Part shown: piece by piece, positions 19,894 through 32,068 of the stretch
Layout: each line of letters begins with the position of its first letter
Numbering within the stretch: position 1 is the stretch's first letter
Source of the DNA: an uncultured Gemmatimonadota bacterium
GTDB lineage: Bacteria > Gemmatimonadota > Gemmatimonadetes > Gemmatimonadales > Gemmatimonadaceae
Direction: 5' to 3'
NCBI GenBank assembly: GCA_902825965.1
Contig: CADEDA010000009.1
Location: forward strand, 1 to 64,000
DNA length: 64,000 nt
Translations under genes and position numbers: made by a program
The notes under the pieces: model-generated
The model's input: the letters and a program-made list of their open reading frames with translations, nothing else
Databases searched by the model: none
Told to the model about the DNA's origin: nothing

Positions 19894-20997
19894 TCAGCGC
19901 AGCGTGAAGCGCCCCAGCGGTTGTGCCACGCCGTTCAACTGCAGCGCCACACGATGGACGCCGGGATAATGCTTGCGGGTGCTCAGGTCGGCCAGCGATA
20001 CCGTCTTGCGCAGGTCGGCCGACGCTCCGGAACCGAGTGAGAGATTGGACAGCTTGAAGACCTTGGCGCTGGTGCCGCCGTTGGATTTGACGAAGTGCAC
20101 CACGAGGTCGGCAACGACGTCCTGCACCCGGGCGGTCGGGTTCTCCAGCGTGACCGTCACGACGACCTTGCCGCCGCGGCGTGGCGCCGCCGGCGTGATC
20201 GCCTTGGACCGCAGGCGCAGTGCGGCCGTTCGCCCGAAGCCCAGCACCTTGAGCGCCGCGGGATCGCCGCGCTTCACCGCGACGCGCAGCGCGTGCCGTA
20301 CGATCCACGCACGCTCCGCACTCGCGGCCCGCATCCACTCGGCGCCCACGGCGACGGCTCGACGCGGATGGTCCTTCCAGATGTCGTTGAGGTTGTTCGC
20401 CACCGACCGACGCACGTAGAGCGCCGGGTCGTCCTTCAGTCGCTCGAGCAGGGCCAGCACCGGCGTCGGGTCGCGCTGGAACGCCTTGAGCCGCGGCGCC
20501 CAGGGGAGCCGGGACCGTGTGCCCTCGGAGACCAGGCGACGCACGTGCTCGCTCGGGTCCCCCGTCCAGGCGTGCAGCCGTTCGAGCGTGCGCGACTCGT
20601 GGTGCTCGAGGAAGGGGCGGATGGCGAACTCCGCCGTGAACACCTGCGTCAGCGCGTGCATCGCGCGCATGGACTCCTCGAAATGCGCGACCCCGCACTG
20701 CCGCACGAACTCCATGTGCGGCAGGTAGTAGAACGCGGCCATGCCTCCGGCCGGCGCCTTCTCCGCCGGCAACGTGGCCAGCAGCACCTCCACCGCGTCC
20801 GCGTACGAGGACGGCAGGAACTCGGCCAGCACCCGACCGAGGTGGCGGCCGCGATCGAGCAGCTCCAGTGCGTCGAAACCCTCGAGCGCGCGGCGTTCGA
20901 ACGCCCGGCGGTCGAAGCTGCGGTGCACCGCCGCGAGCTCCGTCGCGAGGCGCCGGACCACCGGCGCCCCGAACTGGTTCTTGAGCGGCTCCGCCAT
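19894..20997 (-). CDS. AlkD-like HEAT-repeat DNA alkylation repair protein
   Basis: This 367-residue protein resembles the COG4335 branch of AlkD-type proteins, which are built from HEAT-like helical repeats that wrap DNA; AlkD itself removes 3- and 7-alkyl purines. The repeats include ESRTLERLHAWTGDPSEHV, ALLERLKDDPALYVRRSVANNLNDIWKDHP and AWIVRHALRVAVKRGDP. A beta-sandwich domain of about 100 residues follows (VVVTVTLENPTARVQDVV to the end), as in this branch. Cytoplasmic, with no signal peptide. Its ATG overlaps the stop of the upstream tricorn-like gene (TGATG), so the two are translated together. Whether it acts on DNA was not tested here. Confidence 0.75.
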   Translation of the reverse strand: MAEPLKNQFGAPVVRRLATELAAVHRSFDRRAFERRALEGFDALELLDRGRHLGRVLAEFLPSSYADAVEVLLATLPAEKAPAGGMAAFYYLPHMEFVRQCGVAHFEESMRAMHALTQVFTAEFAIRPFLEHHESRTLERLHAWTGDPSEHVRRLVSEGTRSRLPWAPRLKAFQRDPTPVLALLERLKDDPALYVRRSVANNLNDIWKDHPRRAVAVGAEWMRAASAERAWIVRHALRVAVKRGDPAALKVLGFGRTAALRLRSKAITPAAPRRGGKVVVTVTLENPTARVQDVVADLVVHFVKSNGGTSAKVFKLSNLSLGSGASADLRKTVSLADLSTRKHYPGVHRVALQLNGVAQPLGRFTLR

Positions 20998-23900
20998 CAG
21001 CGACGGATACTGCGCATCAACGCGTCGATGGCCGCCGCGAGCTGCTGATCCTGGCCCTTGTTCACCTTGTCGTACTCGTTCATGACGAGGATGTCGGGCT
21101 CGGTCTGCAGGTTCTCGAGGTACTTGCCCGTCGCGGCGTCCTTCACGCCCAGTCCGGGCACGCCCCAGCGGATGCCCCCCTGCAGCCCTTCCCAGCCCGC
21201 GAACGTGCAGGTGCCGGGCACCGGCATGCCGACCAACTGGCCGATCTTGAGGTCCTTGTACGCGTAGGCGTAGCAGTGACCGTCGGAGTAGTTGGCCTCG
21301 TTGGCCAGCGAGATGCTCGGCTTGGTCCAGCGGAAGTTGGGCTCGAAACCCGTGCTGCGGTCGTCCACCGTGTAGTCGAAGAAACGCTTGCCGCTGAGGA
21401 ACATCGCGAGGTCGGCGACCAGGTCGCCGCCCCCGTTGAACCGCGTGTCCACCACCAGCCCGTCCTTCAGCGTGAACTTGCCCAGCACCTCCTCGAACGT
21501 CGTGCGCATCGCCCCGTCGTTCATGCCGGGGATGTGCACGTAGCCCAGTCGGCCGCCGCTCACGCGTTCCACCTCGTCGCGGTTGCGCTTCACCCAACGG
21601 GCGTACAGCAGCCGCCCTTCCTCCGCCTGCGTGATCGGCTTCACCACCAGCTCGCGGCGCGTGCCCCCGAGCGACAGTTCGAGCAAGACGTTCTTGCCGG
21701 CCTTGCGATTGAGCAGTTGGGCCAGGTCGGTGGCCGGGGTGACCGCCTCGCCGTCCACCGTCTCGATGACGCTGCCGGCGGCGACGTTCATGCCGGCGAG
21801 GGCGAGCGGCCCGTTGGCGAGCACCTCGTCGATCCTCGCGCCTGCGGTCGCCCAGGTGGGATCGAGCAGCACGCCGAGCGCCGCCGTCGCGTCGTTGTCC
21901 GCGCCGCTGGGCGTCCAGCGCGCGCCGCTGTGGCTCACGTTCAGCTCGCCAAGCATCTCGGCGAGCATCTCCGCGAACTCGAAGTCGTTGCCGATGTGCG
22001 GGAGGTACTTCGCATACACCGGGCGAATCGCCTGCCAATCGATGCCGTGGAAGCCCGCCGTGTAGTACGTGTCGCGGGTCTTGCGCCACACGTGGTCGAA
22101 GGCCTCGGCGCGTTCGGCCGCCGCGTCCACGATCATCTCGCCGCGGATCGGGATCATGTCGCGCTTGCCGCTCGCCGGGTCGATCTTGGAGATGCCGCCG
22201 TTGGCCAGCAGGAAGATCGTCTTCTGCTCCTTGTCCCAGGTCATGGCGCCACCGCCGGCATCGAGCGCGACGAGTTGCCGCGTCTCCCGCGTGCGGAGGT
22301 TCGTCGTCCACAGATTGAGCCCGCGCTCGAAGCGCGCGAGGTAGTACAGCGACTCGCCGTCCTTGCTCACCAGGGCGTCGCCGAGGGACGCGGAGTGGAT
22401 GGTCAGCCGTGCCTTGCGCTCCTCGATGCCGGCGAGGTCGAGCTCGACGGTCTTGGGGGTGGCGGCGGCAGCACTGTCGGCCTTGGGCTTCGGCGCCTTG
22501 GCCTCGGCCTCCTTCACGAGGGCGAGTTCCTCCTTCGTGAGGCGATAGCGGTCCCAGGCCGCGGCCGTGAAGAACATCCCGTACACGTCGTTCTGCGCGC
22601 CACCCGACTGCGCCACGGCCTTGAGCCCATCGCGGTTGGAGAACCAGAGCATCGCCTGCCCGTCGAGGATCCAGCGCGCGCGGCCATCATTGAACCCGCT
22701 CTGCGTGAGGTTGATCACCGCACCGCGTCCATCCGTCGCGACGAGCCCGACCTCACCCGGCGCGTTACCCGGCACCGAGTAATCGAACAGCATCCACTTG
22801 CCGTCCGGGCTCCACTGGAAGTCCACGCTCGGCGTGGTCGCGAAGATGTGGCGGCGGTCCGCCAGCGTCCGCGTGGCACCGCCATCCAGTGTGCGCACGC
22901 GCAGCGTGGTCCGGTCCTCGATGTAGGCCAGTGACTTGCCGTCGGGGGAGAACAGCGGCTGGTAGTTCTGCTTCTCGTTCACCACGAGCGGCGTCTCGCG
23001 CACGACGGTGGAAGCATAGAAGTAGGGCTCCGACTCGCGGCTGCGGCGGACCTCGTAGATGCCCCAGCGGCCATCGCGCTCGGAGGCGTACGCGATCGAC
23101 TTCCCGTCAGGCGCGAACGACAGCCCGGTCTCCACGGCCGGTGTCCGCGTGAGCTGCTTGGTGACGCCCCCCTCGACCGACGTCACGAACACGTCGCCTC
23201 GGAAGATGAACGCGACTTCCTTGCCGCTCGGTGCGACCTCGATGCTGCTCGCCCCGCCGGTCACGGCGACCACACGTGCATCGTTGGCCTTCGCGTCCAC
23301 GCGCAGCGTGACCTCGACGCGCTGCGGCTGGCCACCGGCGCGCATCGTGTAGAGCTGCCCGTCGTGGCCGAACGCGAGCGTGCCGGTGCTGCTGGCGGAG
23401 AGGAAGCGCACCGGAATGCCGCTGAAGCGCGTGAGCTGCTGCGAGGTCCCGCCCCCGAGGGCGCGCTTGTGCACGTTGAACGTGCCGCTCTCCTCGGAGA
23501 GGTAGTAGATGGCGCGGTCGCCGTCGGTGAGGATGGGCGTGCGGTCCTCCCCCGCGAAGCCGGTGACCTTGCGATGCGTACCGGCCCGTGTGTCCATCAC
23601 CCAGATGTCGCGGGCGATGGCGGAGGTGTGATGCTTGCGCCACTGGTTCTCGCCGCCCTTGCGGTCGTGATAGACCAGCCAACGTCCGTCCGCGCTGTAC
23701 CGCGCGTCCTCGGCCGGCGTCGTGAGGATCTGCAGCGGACGGCCGCCGGCCACGGGCACCTGGTACAGCTCCGGCTGCGACCCGGTGGGATACTGCCGGT
23801 TGGCCGCCGCGTCCATGCGCGCCGCGCCGAAGACGACGCTGCGTCCGCCGGGCGCGAAGCTGTAGGGCACCTCGTCGGCCGAGTGGAACGTGAGCCGCTT

Positions 23901-24215
23901 CGCCTCACCCCCCGCAGCCGGCATCACGAACAGGTCGAAGTTGCCGTGCCGGTCGCTGGCGAACACGAGCTGCGTGCCGTCGGGGCTCCACACCGGCGTC
24001 ATGTCCTGCGCCGCGTGCTGCGTGAGCTGGGTGGCGACGCCACCGGCCACCGGCACGCGGTAGAGGTCCCCCTGATAGGTAAACGCCAACGATTGCCCGT
24101 CGGGCGAGATCGCCGGATAGCGCATCCACGAGGGAGCCGCCTGTGCCGCCAGCGACGTGGCCGGCAACGCGGCGAGGGAAAGGACGAGCGCGAGGCGTTC
24201 GACGGAGCGGAGCAT
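20997..24215 (-). CDS. Tricorn-like S41 protease with beta-propeller
   Basis: A 1072-residue secreted protease. Signal peptide about 1-25, then a PD40/TolB-type propeller (about 30-330; PDGQSLAFTYQGDLYRVPVAGG, SPDGTQLVFASDRHGNFDLFV), a second propeller region (about 330-640), the tricorn C1 region, a PDZ domain (about 780-850), and the S41 catalytic end. The nucleophile is Ser977 in NYSDGHCYAYAY, with Asp978 beside it as in tricorn. The family cuts peptides into small pieces using the propellers as substrate gates. The gene is coupled to the AlkD-like gene downstream and divergent from an AraC regulator, which could control it. A TAGATT box lies 39 bases upstream of the start. Confidence 0.9.
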   Translation of the reverse strand: MLRSVERLALVLSLAALPATSLAAQAAPSWMRYPAISPDGQSLAFTYQGDLYRVPVAGGVATQLTQHAAQDMTPVWSPDGTQLVFASDRHGNFDLFVMPAAGGEAKRLTFHSADEVPYSFAPGGRSVVFGAARMDAAANRQYPTGSQPELYQVPVAGGRPLQILTTPAEDARYSADGRWLVYHDRKGGENQWRKHHTSAIARDIWVMDTRAGTHRKVTGFAGEDRTPILTDGDRAIYYLSEESGTFNVHKRALGGGTSQQLTRFSGIPVRFLSASSTGTLAFGHDGQLYTMRAGGQPQRVEVTLRVDAKANDARVVAVTGGASSIEVAPSGKEVAFIFRGDVFVTSVEGGVTKQLTRTPAVETGLSFAPDGKSIAYASERDGRWGIYEVRRSRESEPYFYASTVVRETPLVVNEKQNYQPLFSPDGKSLAYIEDRTTLRVRTLDGGATRTLADRRHIFATTPSVDFQWSPDGKWMLFDYSVPGNAPGEVGLVATDGRGAVINLTQSGFNDGRARWILDGQAMLWFSNRDGLKAVAQSGGAQNDVYGMFFTAAAWDRYRLTKEELALVKEAEAKAPKPKADSAAAATPKTVELDLAGIEERKARLTIHSASLGDALVSKDGESLYYLARFERGLNLWTTNLRTRETRQLVALDAGGGAMTWDKEQKTIFLLANGGISKIDPASGKRDMIPIRGEMIVDAAAERAEAFDHVWRKTRDTYYTAGFHGIDWQAIRPVYAKYLPHIGNDFEFAEMLAEMLGELNVSHSGARWTPSGADNDATAALGVLLDPTWATAGARIDEVLANGPLALAGMNVAAGSVIETVDGEAVTPATDLAQLLNRKAGKNVLLELSLGGTRRELVVKPITQAEEGRLLYARWVKRNRDEVERVSGGRLGYVHIPGMNDGAMRTTFEEVLGKFTLKDGLVVDTRFNGGGDLVADLAMFLSGKRFFDYTVDDRSTGFEPNFRWTKPSISLANEANYSDGHCYAYAYKDLKIGQLVGMPVPGTCTFAGWEGLQGGIRWGVPGLGVKDAATGKYLENLQTEPDILVMNEYDKVNKGQDQQLAAAIDALMRSIRR

Positions 24216-26821: not shown

Positions 26822-26960
26822 TCAGTCCTTGTACGGATCGAACTCCCGTGCCCCTGCCATCACCACGATGAGCGGACGCAGCGTGTGCAGCACATCGATC
26901 GTGCCGTCCTGCGCGCGGAGCACGTCCGGCAGCCGACGGTAGACGTGCGGAGACGCACGC
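26822..26960 (-). pseudogene. C-terminal remnant of an RtcB-like RNA ligase
   Basis: On the minus strand a short open stretch ends in TGA 26822-26824 and reads HVYRRLPDVLRAQDGTIDV, LHTLRPLIVVMAGAREFDP, YKD. This resembles the C-terminal end of RtcB-family proteins (pattern L-P-x-V-x-MAG...DPYKD), which seal RNA ends. Nothing upstream resembles the catalytic body: the frame runs straight back to TAG 26996-26998, the stop of the next gene. The likeliest reading is the 3' end of a lost gene. The family call is from memory of the motif and could be wrong. Confidence 0.4.
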
Positions 26961-26995
26961 GATGCGCCACCACAGTGGTTGCCGCCCTGCGCCGC

Positions 26996-28066
26996 CTACC
27001 GATCACGCAGCAGCGGCGCGCCGCCCTGCCATCCGCGCTCGATGACCTCGAAGTCATCGGCGGTCAGTTCGTTGAACGCCGCCGCGATCGCCGTGCGGTT
27101 CCAGCGCGGGTCCATCGTGCCCGTCACCGCGAGGTCGGTCCCGACGTCCGCCACGATCAGTCCGTAGGTCTTCATCGCCTGCAGGATGCGCCGGATATCG
27201 GCCGGGAAGCCAGAGAGATCGACGCTGGCGCGCAGCCGCAGCCGGGCGCCGAGCGGCGGCGCGTTCAGGATGCTGTTGATGCCGCGCGCGGCCGGGAACA
27301 CATGACCGTTGCTGCCGCGGACGGTCACGCGGAACGCGTGCGTGATCGGCGCGTCGCGCGTGGCCTCGTCGTAGCGCACGAGCCCGGGGAAGATCGCGAG
27401 GCCCGCATTGTCGGCCGAGACGTAACCCTCGGTGCGACGCGCGTTGGAGTTGAGCGGGAACACGGCGCCGGCGCCCGCCTCCCAGCGCTCGGTGATCGTG
27501 TTGTAGCGCGTGGACCAGGTCTCGAACAACAGGTTGCGGTCGCGGTCGACGATGATCAGCCGTCGTCCGCCCACGCTGCCGCCACCCGGCACGTTGCCTT
27601 CGATGAAGCCCGGCCGCACCCGCACGGCCCGCGGCACCGGATACCCACGCGGCGCGTTCGGCGCCCCGCTGTCCGACTCGGCGCCGTACGACGTGAACGT
27701 GATCGCACTCAACGGTTCGTTGGCACTCACGCCGACGTACGGAATGCCGTAGGGCGGCGGCCCGAAATCCGCCGACAGGGGCCGCACCACGTTGGGCTGG
27801 TTGCTGGTGCGCCCGCTGATGAACCCGATCATCGCGTTCGACTCGGCGTCCACCGGGGCCGACGTGATGTCGAGCTTCCACCAGTTGTCGGCCGGGAGGA
27901 AGTCACGCGTCGAGAAGTCCTGGAGGAGCACGGCACTGTCCGCTCCGAGCGGATCGGGACCGAGGTCGAGTTCCTCGATCGCAGCGCAGGCGCTGGCCGA
28001 CGTCACAGCGCAAGCGATCGCGCCACTCACCAGGAGTACGCGGAGTCGGCGTGAGGGGGTAGTCAC
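26996..28066 (-). CDS. Conserved secreted protein of unknown function, paralog 1
   Basis: This 356-residue protein has a short signal region ending SASACAA (possible lipoprotein Cys) and a body with the ordered motifs FGPPPYGIPYVGVSANEPL, GYPVPRAVRVRPGFIEG, LLFETWSTRYN, AGLAIFPGLVRYDEA, ITHAFRVTV and QAMKTYGLIVADVGTDL, TMDPRWN. I know this motif set from many bacterial secreted proteins, but no function is established. The next gene is a full-length paralog in the same direction. Start is GTG 28066 (TTG 28078 also possible). The protein may act in the periplasm or on the surface. The copy lost some of the conserved loop compared with paralog 2 (QPNVVRPLSADFG for TARRRMHPDFG). Confidence 0.7.
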   Translation of the reverse strand: MTTPSRRLRVLLVSGAIACAVTSASACAAIEELDLGPDPLGADSAVLLQDFSTRDFLPADNWWKLDITSAPVDAESNAMIGFISGRTSNQPNVVRPLSADFGPPPYGIPYVGVSANEPLSAITFTSYGAESDSGAPNAPRGYPVPRAVRVRPGFIEGNVPGGGSVGGRRLIIVDRDRNLLFETWSTRYNTITERWEAGAGAVFPLNSNARRTEGYVSADNAGLAIFPGLVRYDEATRDAPITHAFRVTVRGSNGHVFPAARGINSILNAPPLGARLRLRASVDLSGFPADIRRILQAMKTYGLIVADVGTDLAVTGTMDPRWNRTAIAAAFNELTADDFEVIERGWQGGAPLLRDR

Positions 28067-28209
28067 GGGGCTTCTCAACTGTTGGACGGGACGGCTGCGG
28101 ATGAACCTCTCTGACTGGAGGTTCGGCCGGTCACCGCCGGAGTTGAGGAGCCCCTAGAATCGTGGGACGTGCAGAAGTTGGACGGTGTGCCGTTTGTTGC
28201 CAGTGCCCG

Positions 28210-29250
28210 CTACGGCATCCCCCAACCCAACTGGATCACCTCGAAATCGTCGGCATCCAGCGCATGGAACGCCGGATTGAGCACGTCGTTGTCCCAGCGC
28301 GGATCCATGGTGCCGGAGACGTACATGTCGCTGCCGTTGTCCGCGACGATCAGGCCGTAGGTCTTCATCGCCTGGAAGATGCGGCGCACGTCGGGCGGGT
28401 AACCGCTGATGTCCACCGAAGCCTTGAGGCGCAGGCGCGTGCCCATCGGCGGCGCGCCACTGGTGTTCCCGGCGGCGTGCGACGCGGGCCACACGTAGCC
28501 GTTCGTCGCCCGGGTGGTGACGCGGAATGCGTGCGTGATGGGCGCGTTGCGCACGGCCTCGTCGTAGCGCACCAGGCCGGGGAAGATCGCGAGGCCCGCC
28601 GCATCGGCCGAGGTCCACCCGTCGGGCCGTCGGCCGTTCGCGCTCAGGTCGAAGATCGCGCCGGAGCCCGCCTCCCAGCGCGACGCGCCTCCGTTCCATC
28701 GCGTGGCGTAGAGTTCGAACAGCAGGTCGCGATCGCGGTCGATCATCAGCAGGTGTCGGTCACCCGAGCTGCCACCGCCCGCCACCCCGCCCTCTATATA
28801 GTTGGGTCGCGAACGCGCCACGCGCGGCACCGGATAGCCCGGCGGCGCACCCGGAGCTCCGTCGTCGGACTGGTCGCCATACAGCGTCCAATGCACCACC
28901 TCGAGTGGTTCGTTGGCGGAGACACCCACGTAGGGGATGCCGTAGGGCGGTGGCCCGAAGTCCGGATGCATGCGCCGTCGAGCCGTGGTATTCGACGGCG
29001 TACGGCCGGAGATGAAGTCGATGATTGCCGCCGAGTTCGCCGCGACCGGCGCGGCAGAGATGTCGACGTTCCACCAGTTCGTCGCGGGGAAGAAGCTGCG
29101 CGCCGAGAAGTCCTCGAGCAGCACCGCGGAGTCCGGCCCCAGCGGACTGGGCCCGAGGGCGTCACCACCTTCACCGCCGCCGCAGGCGAGTGCGGCTGTG
29201 GTGACGCCGAGCAGGGCGAGCGTCATGGAACGAGAGCCGAACAGGCGCAT
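28210..29250 (-). CDS. Conserved secreted lipoprotein of unknown function, paralog 2
   Basis: This 346-residue protein has a lipobox (TAALACGGG) soon after ATG 29250; ATG 29226 is a second choice. Its body repeats the motif order of paralog 1: FGPPPYGIPYVGVSANEPL, YPVPRVARSRPNYIEGG, DLLFELYATRW, GWTSADAAGLAIFPGLVRY, THAFRVTTRA, YVWPASHAAG, APPMGTRLRLKASVDISGY and QAMKTYGLIVADNGSDMY. The tandem pair must come from duplication. The spacing between genes is about 140 bases. An Asp/Ser-rich GGEGGDALGPSP linker follows the lipid Cys. No catalytic residues can be named. Confidence 0.75.
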   Translation of the reverse strand: MRLFGSRSMTLALLGVTTAALACGGGEGGDALGPSPLGPDSAVLLEDFSARSFFPATNWWNVDISAAPVAANSAAIIDFISGRTPSNTTARRRMHPDFGPPPYGIPYVGVSANEPLEVVHWTLYGDQSDDGAPGAPPGYPVPRVARSRPNYIEGGVAGGGSSGDRHLLMIDRDRDLLFELYATRWNGGASRWEAGSGAIFDLSANGRRPDGWTSADAAGLAIFPGLVRYDEAVRNAPITHAFRVTTRATNGYVWPASHAAGNTSGAPPMGTRLRLKASVDISGYPPDVRRIFQAMKTYGLIVADNGSDMYVSGTMDPRWDNDVLNPAFHALDADDFEVIQLGWGMP

Positions 29251-29440
29251 GCGAATGCGGGGCTGGGGTCGCGTGGCGGGCACGTCCGTACGACGACGCA
29301 GCCCACGCGAAGGGCGCACGAGCCGCGGCGGGGGCGTCACTTGGTGAGAACGGCGTTAGGTTGCCTCACTGGTGCTGCCCGGCCCCGTCGCGCCGACGCG
29401 GCCTCCGTGACGCCCACTCTCCCACGCAGGTAGTGCAAGC

Positions 29441-29986: not shown

Positions 29987-32068
29987 CTACCGCCGCACCA
30001 GCACCGCGATCAGCTGCCCCAGCCGCTCCAGGTCCCTGAGGTCCAGCACCTCCACCGGCGAGTGACTGTATCGACCGGGCCAGGACAGCGGCACGTTGGC
30101 GGCACCCCAATAGGTGAACGCAGTGCCGTCCGTCCCGCCCTGCGTGAGGCCGATCTGCAGCGGGATGCCCGCGGTGCGCGCGACGGCCTCGAGCTCCGCG
30201 CGTACCGTCGGCGGCACCATACTCGTCGATTCGATCGCGCGTAGCACCGGCCCGGCACCCAAGGGCAGGTGCGCGAAGTGCGGCGATTCCAGCGGCGTGG
30301 CGGAGCTCACGAAGGTGTCGATGCTGTGCACCCGCGCGACGTTCCGCCCGATTCGCTCGGCCAGCGCCGCCGCGCCCAGCAGTCCGACCTCCTCGGCCGT
30401 GGACCACACGAAGAGCACGCGCCGCGTGAGTTGTGCGGGCGTGAGCGCGTGCAGCGCCTGGATCAGGGCCGTGGAGCCGGCGCGATCGTCGAGGGCACGC
30501 GCCGCGAAGCGTGCGCCCGCGAGGCGCGTCGCGTCCTTGTAGGCGCTGACGGTGCTGCCCACCCGCACACCGGCCGCGATCAACGCCGCGGAATCGAGGC
30601 CGAAGGTAGCCAGCATGCGCGCAGGGCGGCGCACACGGGCCGAGTCACGCGGGACGAATACGCCGCGCAACGTCCGGCCCGTGCCGTCGCCGCCGCGCGG
30701 CAGGTGCAGCAACGCCGCCTGCCCTTCCCACGCCGACGGCGACATGCCGCCGCGGATCCGCAACGACACTGTGCCGTCTCGGTCGATGGACGCCACGTCG
30801 AACCCGACCTCGTCGAGGTGCGCGATCACCACGAGCGTGTCACGCTCGGGCCCCGCGGCCACGATGAGGTTGCCGGCGTCGTCGACGGTCGCCGCCGCCT
30901 GCGCCCAGGGCGGCAACGCCGCGCGCACGGCCTCGCGCACCTGCCACTCATCACCGGAGACACCGGGCAGGTCGCTGAGCCGCTTGAGCAGTGCTGCGGT
31001 CGCGGCATGCGGGTCCGCGGTGCGGGCGCTGGGAGATGACGGTGCCGCGCCGAGCGCGATCCACGGCGAGGCTCCGGGCGACCCGGCCGATGCACCGGCC
31101 GCACGCATCACGGACTCGAGCAGCCACCCCGCTTCCGGCTCGCTGATGGTCTCGACCAAGCTGCCCGCATGGCGCACCGCCGGCGCGAGCAGACGCAACG
31201 AATCGAGTCCCGCGACGCGGTAGATGCTGCCGTCGATGCCGGCGGAAGGCCCACCACGCCGCAACCAGCGCGTGCCGCGGGCCGAAGCCCCACGGCCGAC
31301 CACCGTGAGTTCGTCCACCCGTCCGAGGCGGGCCAACGCCGCGCCCAGGCCGTTCCAGTTGAAGACACTCTCCGTGGTGATGAGGAACGTGGTCTCGCCG
31401 TCGCTCACGGTGCCGCGCGCGGCCGCCGCGACCGCGGCGCAGCCGGCCCGCTGCCCGGCAGCGTTGCCCGCGACGCCGTCCGCGTACGGCCACGCCGGCA
31501 CGCGACGCGCCACCGGATCCATGAGCGCGATGCCGAGTGCCCGCACCTCGGCGGCCGACGACGCGCCGACGTCCAACCAGAGATCGTCAGCCGTGACCAC
31601 CGCCGTGTCGCCGCGATGCTGGAAGGCGAAATGGTTGTTGGCGATCGCGAACACCCCCGGCACCGGCCCGCGGCCCGTGAGGATGTGGACGTGCTGGCCC
31701 TCGTGCATCTGGTCGAAGAGGGGATGCCCGCCGCCGCCCACCCGATGCACGCGCAAGAAGCCGTCGGCCGTGATCTGCGTGACCGCGAAGCCCGGCCGAT
31801 CGATCGCGCAGGCGACCACGCGGCGCGGCGCGCCGCTGCCCTTGGTGAGCGCGAGATTGCCGCGCGCATCGCGCGTCCACCCGTCCGTCGCACGCAGGAC
31901 CACATCCGTCGCCGACCGCTCGTGCCCGGTCGGTGCGTCGAGGGAGATCCACGACACCAATGCGCGCGTCGCGTCATCCGACTGCGCCGCGAGTGCAGGA
32001 GCGAACGAGACCGTCACCCCCAACGCGAGCAGGGGGAGCATGGGCGCGGCGCGATTCACGGCAATCAT
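29987..32068 (-). CDS. Double M42-type metallopeptidase with degenerate N-terminal half
   Basis: This 693-residue secreted protein (signal peptide about 1-30, ending APALAAQ) holds two M42-like halves. The C-terminal half (about 350-693) keeps the two-metal site: His417 and Asp419 in IAHLDEVGF, Asp527 in ALDDRAG, Glu559/Glu560 in TAEEVGLLG, and His669 in YSHSPVE. M42 enzymes are aminopeptidases that chew peptides from the N-terminus. The N-terminal half (about 35-330) shows the same pattern but with ligands lost: ACAIDRPGFAV for AHLDEVGF, ADGVAGNAAGQ for ALDDRAG, TTESVFNWNG for TAEEVGLLG. So it is probably a structural pseudo-domain. It is divergent from the secreted amidohydrolase. Confidence 0.8.
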   Translation of the reverse strand: MIAVNRAAPMLPLLALGVTVSFAPALAAQSDDATRALVSWISLDAPTGHERSATDVVLRATDGWTRDARGNLALTKGSGAPRRVVACAIDRPGFAVTQITADGFLRVHRVGGGGHPLFDQMHEGQHVHILTGRGPVPGVFAIANNHFAFQHRGDTAVVTADDLWLDVGASSAAEVRALGIALMDPVARRVPAWPYADGVAGNAAGQRAGCAAVAAAARGTVSDGETTFLITTESVFNWNGLGAALARLGRVDELTVVGRGASARGTRWLRRGGPSAGIDGSIYRVAGLDSLRLLAPAVRHAGSLVETISEPEAGWLLESVMRAAGASAGSPGASPWIALGAAPSSPSARTADPHAATAALLKRLSDLPGVSGDEWQVREAVRAALPPWAQAAATVDDAGNLIVAAGPERDTLVVIAHLDEVGFDVASIDRDGTVSLRIRGGMSPSAWEGQAALLHLPRGGDGTGRTLRGVFVPRDSARVRRPARMLATFGLDSAALIAAGVRVGSTVSAYKDATRLAGARFAARALDDRAGSTALIQALHALTPAQLTRRVLFVWSTAEEVGLLGAAALAERIGRNVARVHSIDTFVSSATPLESPHFAHLPLGAGPVLRAIESTSMVPPTVRAELEAVARTAGIPLQIGLTQGGTDGTAFTYWGAANVPLSWPGRYSHSPVEVLDLRDLERLGQLIAVLVRR

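Follow-up and report, generated by a model that had tools for sequence, protein, structure and literature searches.

The window, a 64,000-nucleotide stretch of contig CADEDA010000009.1 from an uncultured member of the Gemmatimonadaceae, carries on its minus strand a gene for a protein with two successive M42 peptidase domains, which we call the N-half and the C-half. The gene and its parts are as follows:

29987..32068, minus strand: coding sequence of a 693-aa double M42 protein with a signal peptide (ORF and Pfam; ATG at 32068)
31985..32068, minus strand: Sec-type signal peptide, residues 1-28, with ALAA before Q29 (read from the sequence)
31034..31981, minus strand: N-half, a putative pseudo-M42 domain, residues 30-345 (Pfam and fold match)
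31013..31093, minus strand: inter-domain linker, about residues 326-352, lying between the final helix modelled for the N-half and the first C-half helix (low confidence)
29990..31033, minus strand: C-half, a predicted metal-competent M42 domain, residues 346-693 (Pfam, 170.6 bits; PDB sequence match to PhTET1, E 9.5e-38)

Against Pfam PF05343 (cut-off 23.2), the N-half scored 83.7 bits over model positions 1-159, and the 170.6 bits of the C-half covered the entire model (positions 1-292 of 292). These scores are far beyond chance and on sequence grounds place both halves in the M42 family. Membership of M28 or M20 was rejected, as the whole protein scored 35.1 and 29.6 bits there vs. 250.4 bits for M42, and no NCBIfam model exceeded its cut-off. 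The source genome also encodes a canonical M42 gene (L001, 273.9 bits). A full-length AlphaFold2 model built from three sequences had a pLDDT of 37.5 and was used for one helix position only.

Other genes near the double M42 gene were noted as well. Two related neighbouring genes at 26996-28078 and 28210-29340 (both minus strand) are without a significant Pfam match, and a 95-base tRNA-Ile called by ARAGORN at 26944-27038 (minus strand) overlaps the end of ORF 26996-28078 and is possibly a false call. A Tricorn-like protease with PD40 repeats, Tricorn_C1, PDZ_Tricorn and S41 domains is encoded ~6 kb away from the double M42 gene, at 20997-24215 (minus strand); TET and tricorn were formerly thought mutually exclusive, according to PMC3511314. 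When neighbours of the window copy were sought in ten loci, common ones appeared in L037 only, a locus from a Gemmatimonadaceae MAG whose double M42 protein is 71% identical in its best segment. There, the two related genes again lie side by side, at 15.4-17.6 kb; their best segments are 81% and 87% identical.

By sequence, the N-half matched PDB M42 chains across its first half (PhTET1, E 4.1e-11). An AlphaFold2 model of the N-half only (pLDDT 77.9, pTM 0.81) was fitted by VIA-align to PhTET1 (2wyr_B) with Z 26.3 over 276 aligned residues at 3.0 A, spanning model residues 2-297 of 316, and to the M18 peptidase DNPEP (7u5h_A) with Z 21.0; its best Foldseek match was 9qr6_A (E 1.9e-19). Of the 28 sequences aligned to build this model, 25 were canonical M42-like proteins from viral contigs, which biased it toward the M42 fold. 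With that bias, the modelled N-half superposes on M42 structures, with their catalytic and PDZ-like domains, across nearly its whole length, one of the checks that a preliminary description of this DNA had proposed.

The metal site of the N-half appears to be gone. At the points matching known ligands, the alignments placed the following residues:

31805..31807, minus strand: A88, lost metal ligand (TET2 H68), in ACAIDRPG (alignments)
31454..31456, minus strand: G205, lost bridging ligand (TET2 D182), in GNAAGQRAG (alignments)
31364..31369, minus strand: S234-V235, lost general base and ligand (TET2 E212/E213), in TTESVFNW (alignments)
31163..31165, minus strand: G302, lost ligand (TET2 H323) (alignment)

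The C-half was found to keep its ligands:

30818..30820, minus strand: H417, metal ligand (alignments)
30488..30490, minus strand: D527, bridging metal ligand (alignments)
30389..30394, minus strand: E559-E560, general base and metal ligand (alignments)
30317..30319, minus strand: D584, metal ligand (TET2 D235) (alignments)
30062..30064, minus strand: H669, metal ligand (TET2 H323) (alignments)

An M42 peptidase is recognized by five ligands of a dinuclear metal centre and a general-base Glu. The C-half carries all of them (H417, D527, E559, E560, D584 and H669), and its assignment to M42 comes from sequence over the whole Pfam model. The preliminary description had correctly listed H417, D419, D527, E559, E560 and H669 for this half, a list from which D584 was absent. 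It had also claimed that the N-half lost its metal sites, and this was borne out by A88, G205, S234/V235 and G302 at the matching points; as aligned, the N-half is a pseudo-enzyme of the M42 family. The place of TET2 D235 in the N-halves depends on the alignment: Asp stood there once, in 45/67 rows including the window's, and two other alignments had a gap.

We then counted these positions across relatives in which the halves are either fused in one chain or split into two genes. PfTET3 and TET2 positions were assigned by aligning a canonical sequence to PDB chains, among them 4x8i and 1xfo. The counts cover 66 rows per half (40 fused and 26 split, with two Algoriphagus rows excluded), which are related to one another, some at ~98% identity, such that the pattern may reflect a single ancestral event. 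The duplicates L002, L003 and L033 had been dropped before counting, as had the N-piece L063 (190 aa) and the C-pieces L060 and L065, which were all too short. Not one of the 66 N-halves retained TET2 H68, D182 or H323, whereas the C-halves retained them in 64/66 (one Ser, one gap), 66/66 and 65/66 (one gap) rows, respectively. Glu was found at TET2 E212 in 6/66 N-halves and at E213 in 3/66, compared to 66/66 C-halves at both.

The loop of the dimerisation domain followed the opposite pattern. Two features describe it in the window protein:

31631..31633, minus strand: H146, the loop histidine of the N-half (TET2 H123, PfTET3 H117 position), proposed to act in trans (alignments)
30599..30664, minus strand: shortened C-half loop, G469-G490, lacking the loop histidine (22 residues vs. 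31 in the N-half; loop comparison)

The loop histidine was present in 66/66 N-halves and 63/64 canonical M42 sequences but in 0/66 C-halves. An independent alignment, to an HMM derived from canonical sequences, gave the same result for the two halves (66/66 and 0/66), with 14 C rows gapped at this position. The C-half is therefore unlike a TET, in which the loop histidine (TET2 H123) lies within the metal-site domain. Median loop lengths were 22-23 residues in C-halves (range 21-38), 31-32 in N-halves and 30 in canonical sequences. A histidine did occur within the C-half loop span of 3/40 fused and 13/27 other C-halves, at no conserved place. The Algoriphagus copy, outside these counts, also has the loop histidine in its N-half and no histidine in its C-half loop.

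We also surveyed 50 columns conserved in canonical M42 sequences, the loop histidine having been noticed before this survey was run. Fourteen columns were kept only in the C-halves (five of these because the N-halves are gapped), and a single one, the loop histidine, was kept only in the N-halves; 11 were kept in both halves, five were lost in both, and 19 were mixed. Judging from these alignments, metals and loop histidine are divided reciprocally between the C- and N-halves. If each dimer had a single composite site, just this would be expected: the C-half metals and N-half loop kept, and the mirror pair lost.

Three further N-half residues bear on the dimer interface and on the old metal site:

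31571..31573, minus strand: D166, kept in the N-half at the position of PfTET3 D137, the dimer-interface partner of the neighbour's R311/Y312 (alignments; PMC4745047)
31808..31810, minus strand: C87, invariant cysteine adjoining the lost TET2 H68 position (cysteine count)
31439..31441, minus strand: C210, invariant cysteine five residues past the lost TET2 D182 position (cysteine count)

PfTET3 D137 is reported to bond to R311 and Y312 of the neighbouring subunit in the dimer (PMC4745047). Its position was Asp in 66/66 N-halves and 64/64 canonical sequences, in 18/26 split C-halves, and in 0/40 fused C-halves, 38 of which had Trp. PfTET3 R311 was retained in the C-halves (40/40 fused, 24/26 split), and the R299 position was Arg in 34/40 fused and 18/26 split N-halves. 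Both C87 and C210 were found in 66/66 N-halves, and the N-half cysteine total was exactly two in 64/66 and three in the other two. None of the 67 C rows and 64 canonical rows had C87. We dropped C210 as an N-half-specific residue, since Cys stood there in 14/27 non-fused C rows, and the Algoriphagus N-half is without Cys at the C87 position. Because C87 and C210 sit in an exported protein, they suggest that a disulfide holds the former metal site together, and by their positions in the sequence such a C87-C210 bond may flank the dead metal centre.

The same arrangement was then found in other genomes, as the preliminary description had asked. Of 298 genomes from the phylum Gemmatimonadota, 51 matched the double protein over its full length within one frame, and another four (G164, G135, G229 and G258) matched it in two pieces inside one frame. 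In one of the 51 (G190), the fused gene is present in two copies, L026 and L074, on different contigs. The families coded f1 and f5 had fused forms, as did one genome of f2 (G041). In f2 and f3, 27 genomes carried the C-half as its own gene with a strong match (at least 234 bits), and an N gene was present in all 27, mostly adjacent but in a few cases on a different contig or at the end of one. Outside this resolved split set were a C-like fragment in G214 and a masked pair in G270.

Other phyla were covered only by a strict-pattern scan, which gave two relatives, L037 (from the Gemmatimonadaceae MAG) and L038. In Bacteroidota, the double form was seen, among the matches listed, only in one Algoriphagus genome (1/296 and 1/60, the same genome), with at most three candidates per genome scored in the list of 296. 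This Algoriphagus marinus gene has an in-frame stop within its N-half (L038:8394-8396), which could be an error, decay or recoding. No relative was found when viral contigs were scanned with the fused alignment, and none of 17 matching plasmid records covered 80% of the query. A canonical-M42 scan of IMG/VR viral contigs did return 30 M42-like loci (L147-L176), and the 25 aligned proteins from viral contigs mostly had intact ligands and the loop histidine.

In all 21 split pairs measured, the C gene could begin at an ATG or GTG that makes it overlap the end of the N gene by 4 bases, although alternative nearby C-gene starts were possible in most of them. This overlap was measured in 21 of 26 two-gene split loci; L050, L060, L062, L065 and L177 were excluded for a late C start, contig ends, masked bases or, in the case of L177, later retrieval. 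By a crude hydrophobicity test, signal-peptide-like starts were found in 26/27 split N, 25/28 split C and 40/40 fused proteins, compared to 0/22 canonical M42 frames of the same phylum. We predict that the C-half is an active peptidase working outside the cytoplasm.

A shared gene order was also found around the two forms: SelA, a HAD phosphatase, a PurN-like formyltransferase, M42 N, M42 C and a TMEM260-like protein. Split loci such as L039, L041, L042, L045, L046 and L049 had the whole order, and fused loci L073, L075, L076, L077 and L078 had all or part of it. None of it was seen in split loci L051, L053, L056, L057, L065 and L066 or in the other fused loci examined, many of which had only 1.5 kb of flank. 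Its presence around both kinds indicates that one locus exists in split and fused form. A split ancestor followed by fusion would be the simpler reading.

In a phylogenetic tree, N-halves, C-halves and canonical M42 sequences were each separated from the rest by a branch (SH-aLRT 97, 99 and 96), and the fused N-halves (SH-aLRT 99) and fused C-halves (99) formed parallel groups. This tree, from a quick search of 95 of the 198 available rows with a midpoint root, does not give the sister status of N and C. The distance matrices of the two halves were correlated (r 0.93 over 63 pairs, with species history uncontrolled), as would be expected if the halves were inherited together, and the N-half diverged ~1.4 times faster than the C-half. 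Across 13 pairs, dN/dS was 0.085-0.313 for the N-half and 0.027-0.216 for the C-half. By these ratios, the N-half is constrained by purifying selection and is not decaying. The double M42 pair is not a stray duplicate. The preliminary description had called the N-half a "ligand-less duplicate half"; ligand-less it is, but the phrase was incomplete because this half is under purifying selection, is a separate gene elsewhere and keeps interface-acting residues.

We consider it probable that the two M42 aminopeptidase halves of the double protein form an asymmetric pseudo-dimer and share a single composite active site, in which C-half metals are joined by an N-half loop acting in trans, the mirror site having decayed. 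A symmetric homodimer of M42 subunits would contain a pair of identical composite sites, each joining the metals of one subunit to the loop histidine of the other. After duplication, only one of these would have been kept, with both metals held by the C-half. The dimerisation-domain loop of the N-half would reach across and supply H146 to the C-half site in trans, with D166 lying at the interface, and the mirror site of N-half metals and C-half loop would have decayed. The halves would come from two neighbouring genes in some families and form one fused chain in others. Both the physical dimer of the halves and the trans contact of the N-half loop are what we infer from this pattern. We lean somewhat less firmly, at a little better than even, toward the fuller reading that a symmetric M42 dimer has been dismantled to one composite site per pair, with the metal centre of the pseudo-half replaced by the C87-C210 disulfide.

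Prior work on related peptidases gives this trans role some precedent. In the human M18 peptidase DNPEP, His170 on a loop of the opposing subunit is reported to complete the active site, and the His170Phe mutant was inactive (PMC3472314). The same authors state that M42 enzymes conserve His170 and consider loop swapping a likely feature of both M18 and M42 (PMC3472314). In M42 itself, TET2 H123 mutants had a higher KM and lost substrate affinity, and H123 was described as possibly close to the active site of the adjacent subunit (PMC8993905). Yet, M42 structures differ in the distance of the loop histidine from an active site, which ranges from ~4 A to more than 20 A and exceeds 20 A in the cryo-EM structure of TET2 (PMC8993905), and given this spread, the trans role in M42 itself is only a proposal. 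The loop is also described as often disordered in M42 structures.

Other roles for the N-half deserve weighing. It could be a structural or folding partner only, capping the dimerisation face of the C-half and stabilizing it, with the loop histidine kept for packing or some other reason. The interface positions kept in the N-half (D166, and Arg at the R299 position in the counts above) would suit such a partner, as would the two invariant cysteines, which suggest a rigid domain. Still, we regard this as unlikely because it leaves unexplained the exact loss of the loop histidine and the shortening of the loop in the C-half, when both are kept in the N-half. Less probable again is the suggestion in the preliminary description that the N-half binds substrate or forms a cage, perhaps a TET-like one with six active and six dead sites. 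The N-half does keep the M42 fold, and Q206, a PfTET3 dodecamer-interface residue, is Gln in 50/66 N-halves. However, Gln stands there in only 5/66 C-halves, no reciprocal loop loss is predicted, and metal removal is reported to dissociate TETs (PMC4745047), making a metal-less half less likely to hold a dodecamer together. Substrate-binding and cage roles are less likely than completion of the partner's site in trans because the N-half is under selection, is a separate neighbouring gene elsewhere, and keeps residues that act at M42 and M18 interfaces.

The remaining alternatives seem far weaker. We see very little chance that the N-half binds a metal or cofactor through other residues; by sequence, C87, C210 and D90 do lie around the old metal site, but two cysteines in an exported protein would better fit a disulfide, and the Algoriphagus copy is without Cys at the C87 position. 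A decaying, functionless duplicate is scarcely credible. Its lost metal ligands, its faster divergence and the in-frame stop in the Algoriphagus N-half might suggest decay, yet the dN/dS range stated above, the retention of H146, D166, C87 and C210 in 66/66 N-halves, and the presence of an N gene wherever a strong split-type C gene was found (27 genomes) argue against it. The asymmetric pseudo-dimer with its shared site remains our preferred reading.

Active and inactive halves, on separate genes or fused, are found in M16 peptidases (mitochondrial processing peptidase and insulin-degrading enzyme), which differ in that their fold and metal site are unrelated to M42. The M42 TETs (PhTET1, PhTET2, PfTET3 and TmPep1050) are like the window protein in fold, C-half ligands, loop-histidine position and dimer-interface residues. 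However, they are built of identical single-domain subunits with metals and loop in one chain, whereas the window protein divides these between its domains and has a signal peptide. PhTET2-PhTET3 hetero-dodecamers likewise hold two different M42 subunits per particle, but their building blocks are reported to be homodimers (PMC4220976); here, the dimer is predicted to be a heterodimer with one partner lacking a metal site. YtoP-YsdC of Bacillus subtilis is likewise a heterodimer of M42 paralogues (PMC10090944; PDB 9a5r), which the available text of that report does not call a pseudo-enzyme pair. M18 DNPEP, whose fold the N-half model matches (7u5h_A), is similar in that the loop histidine of one subunit completes the site of the other but, unlike the window pair, is described as a symmetric homo-oligomer (PMC3472314).

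The titles and abstract openings listed by searches of open-access literature gave no account of an M42 pseudo-partner or a double M42 protein, in line with the earlier view that this arrangement is poorly described. The window gene and its relatives present a putative pseudo-enzyme partner within M42, at a locus that occurs in both two-gene and fused form. Because the cis and trans contributions sit on different domains, and in some genomes on different genes, the question of whether the loop acts in trans becomes testable in M42. If the fuller reading of a dismantled M42 dimer is true, this division would be natural genetic evidence for the M42 loop histidine working in trans.
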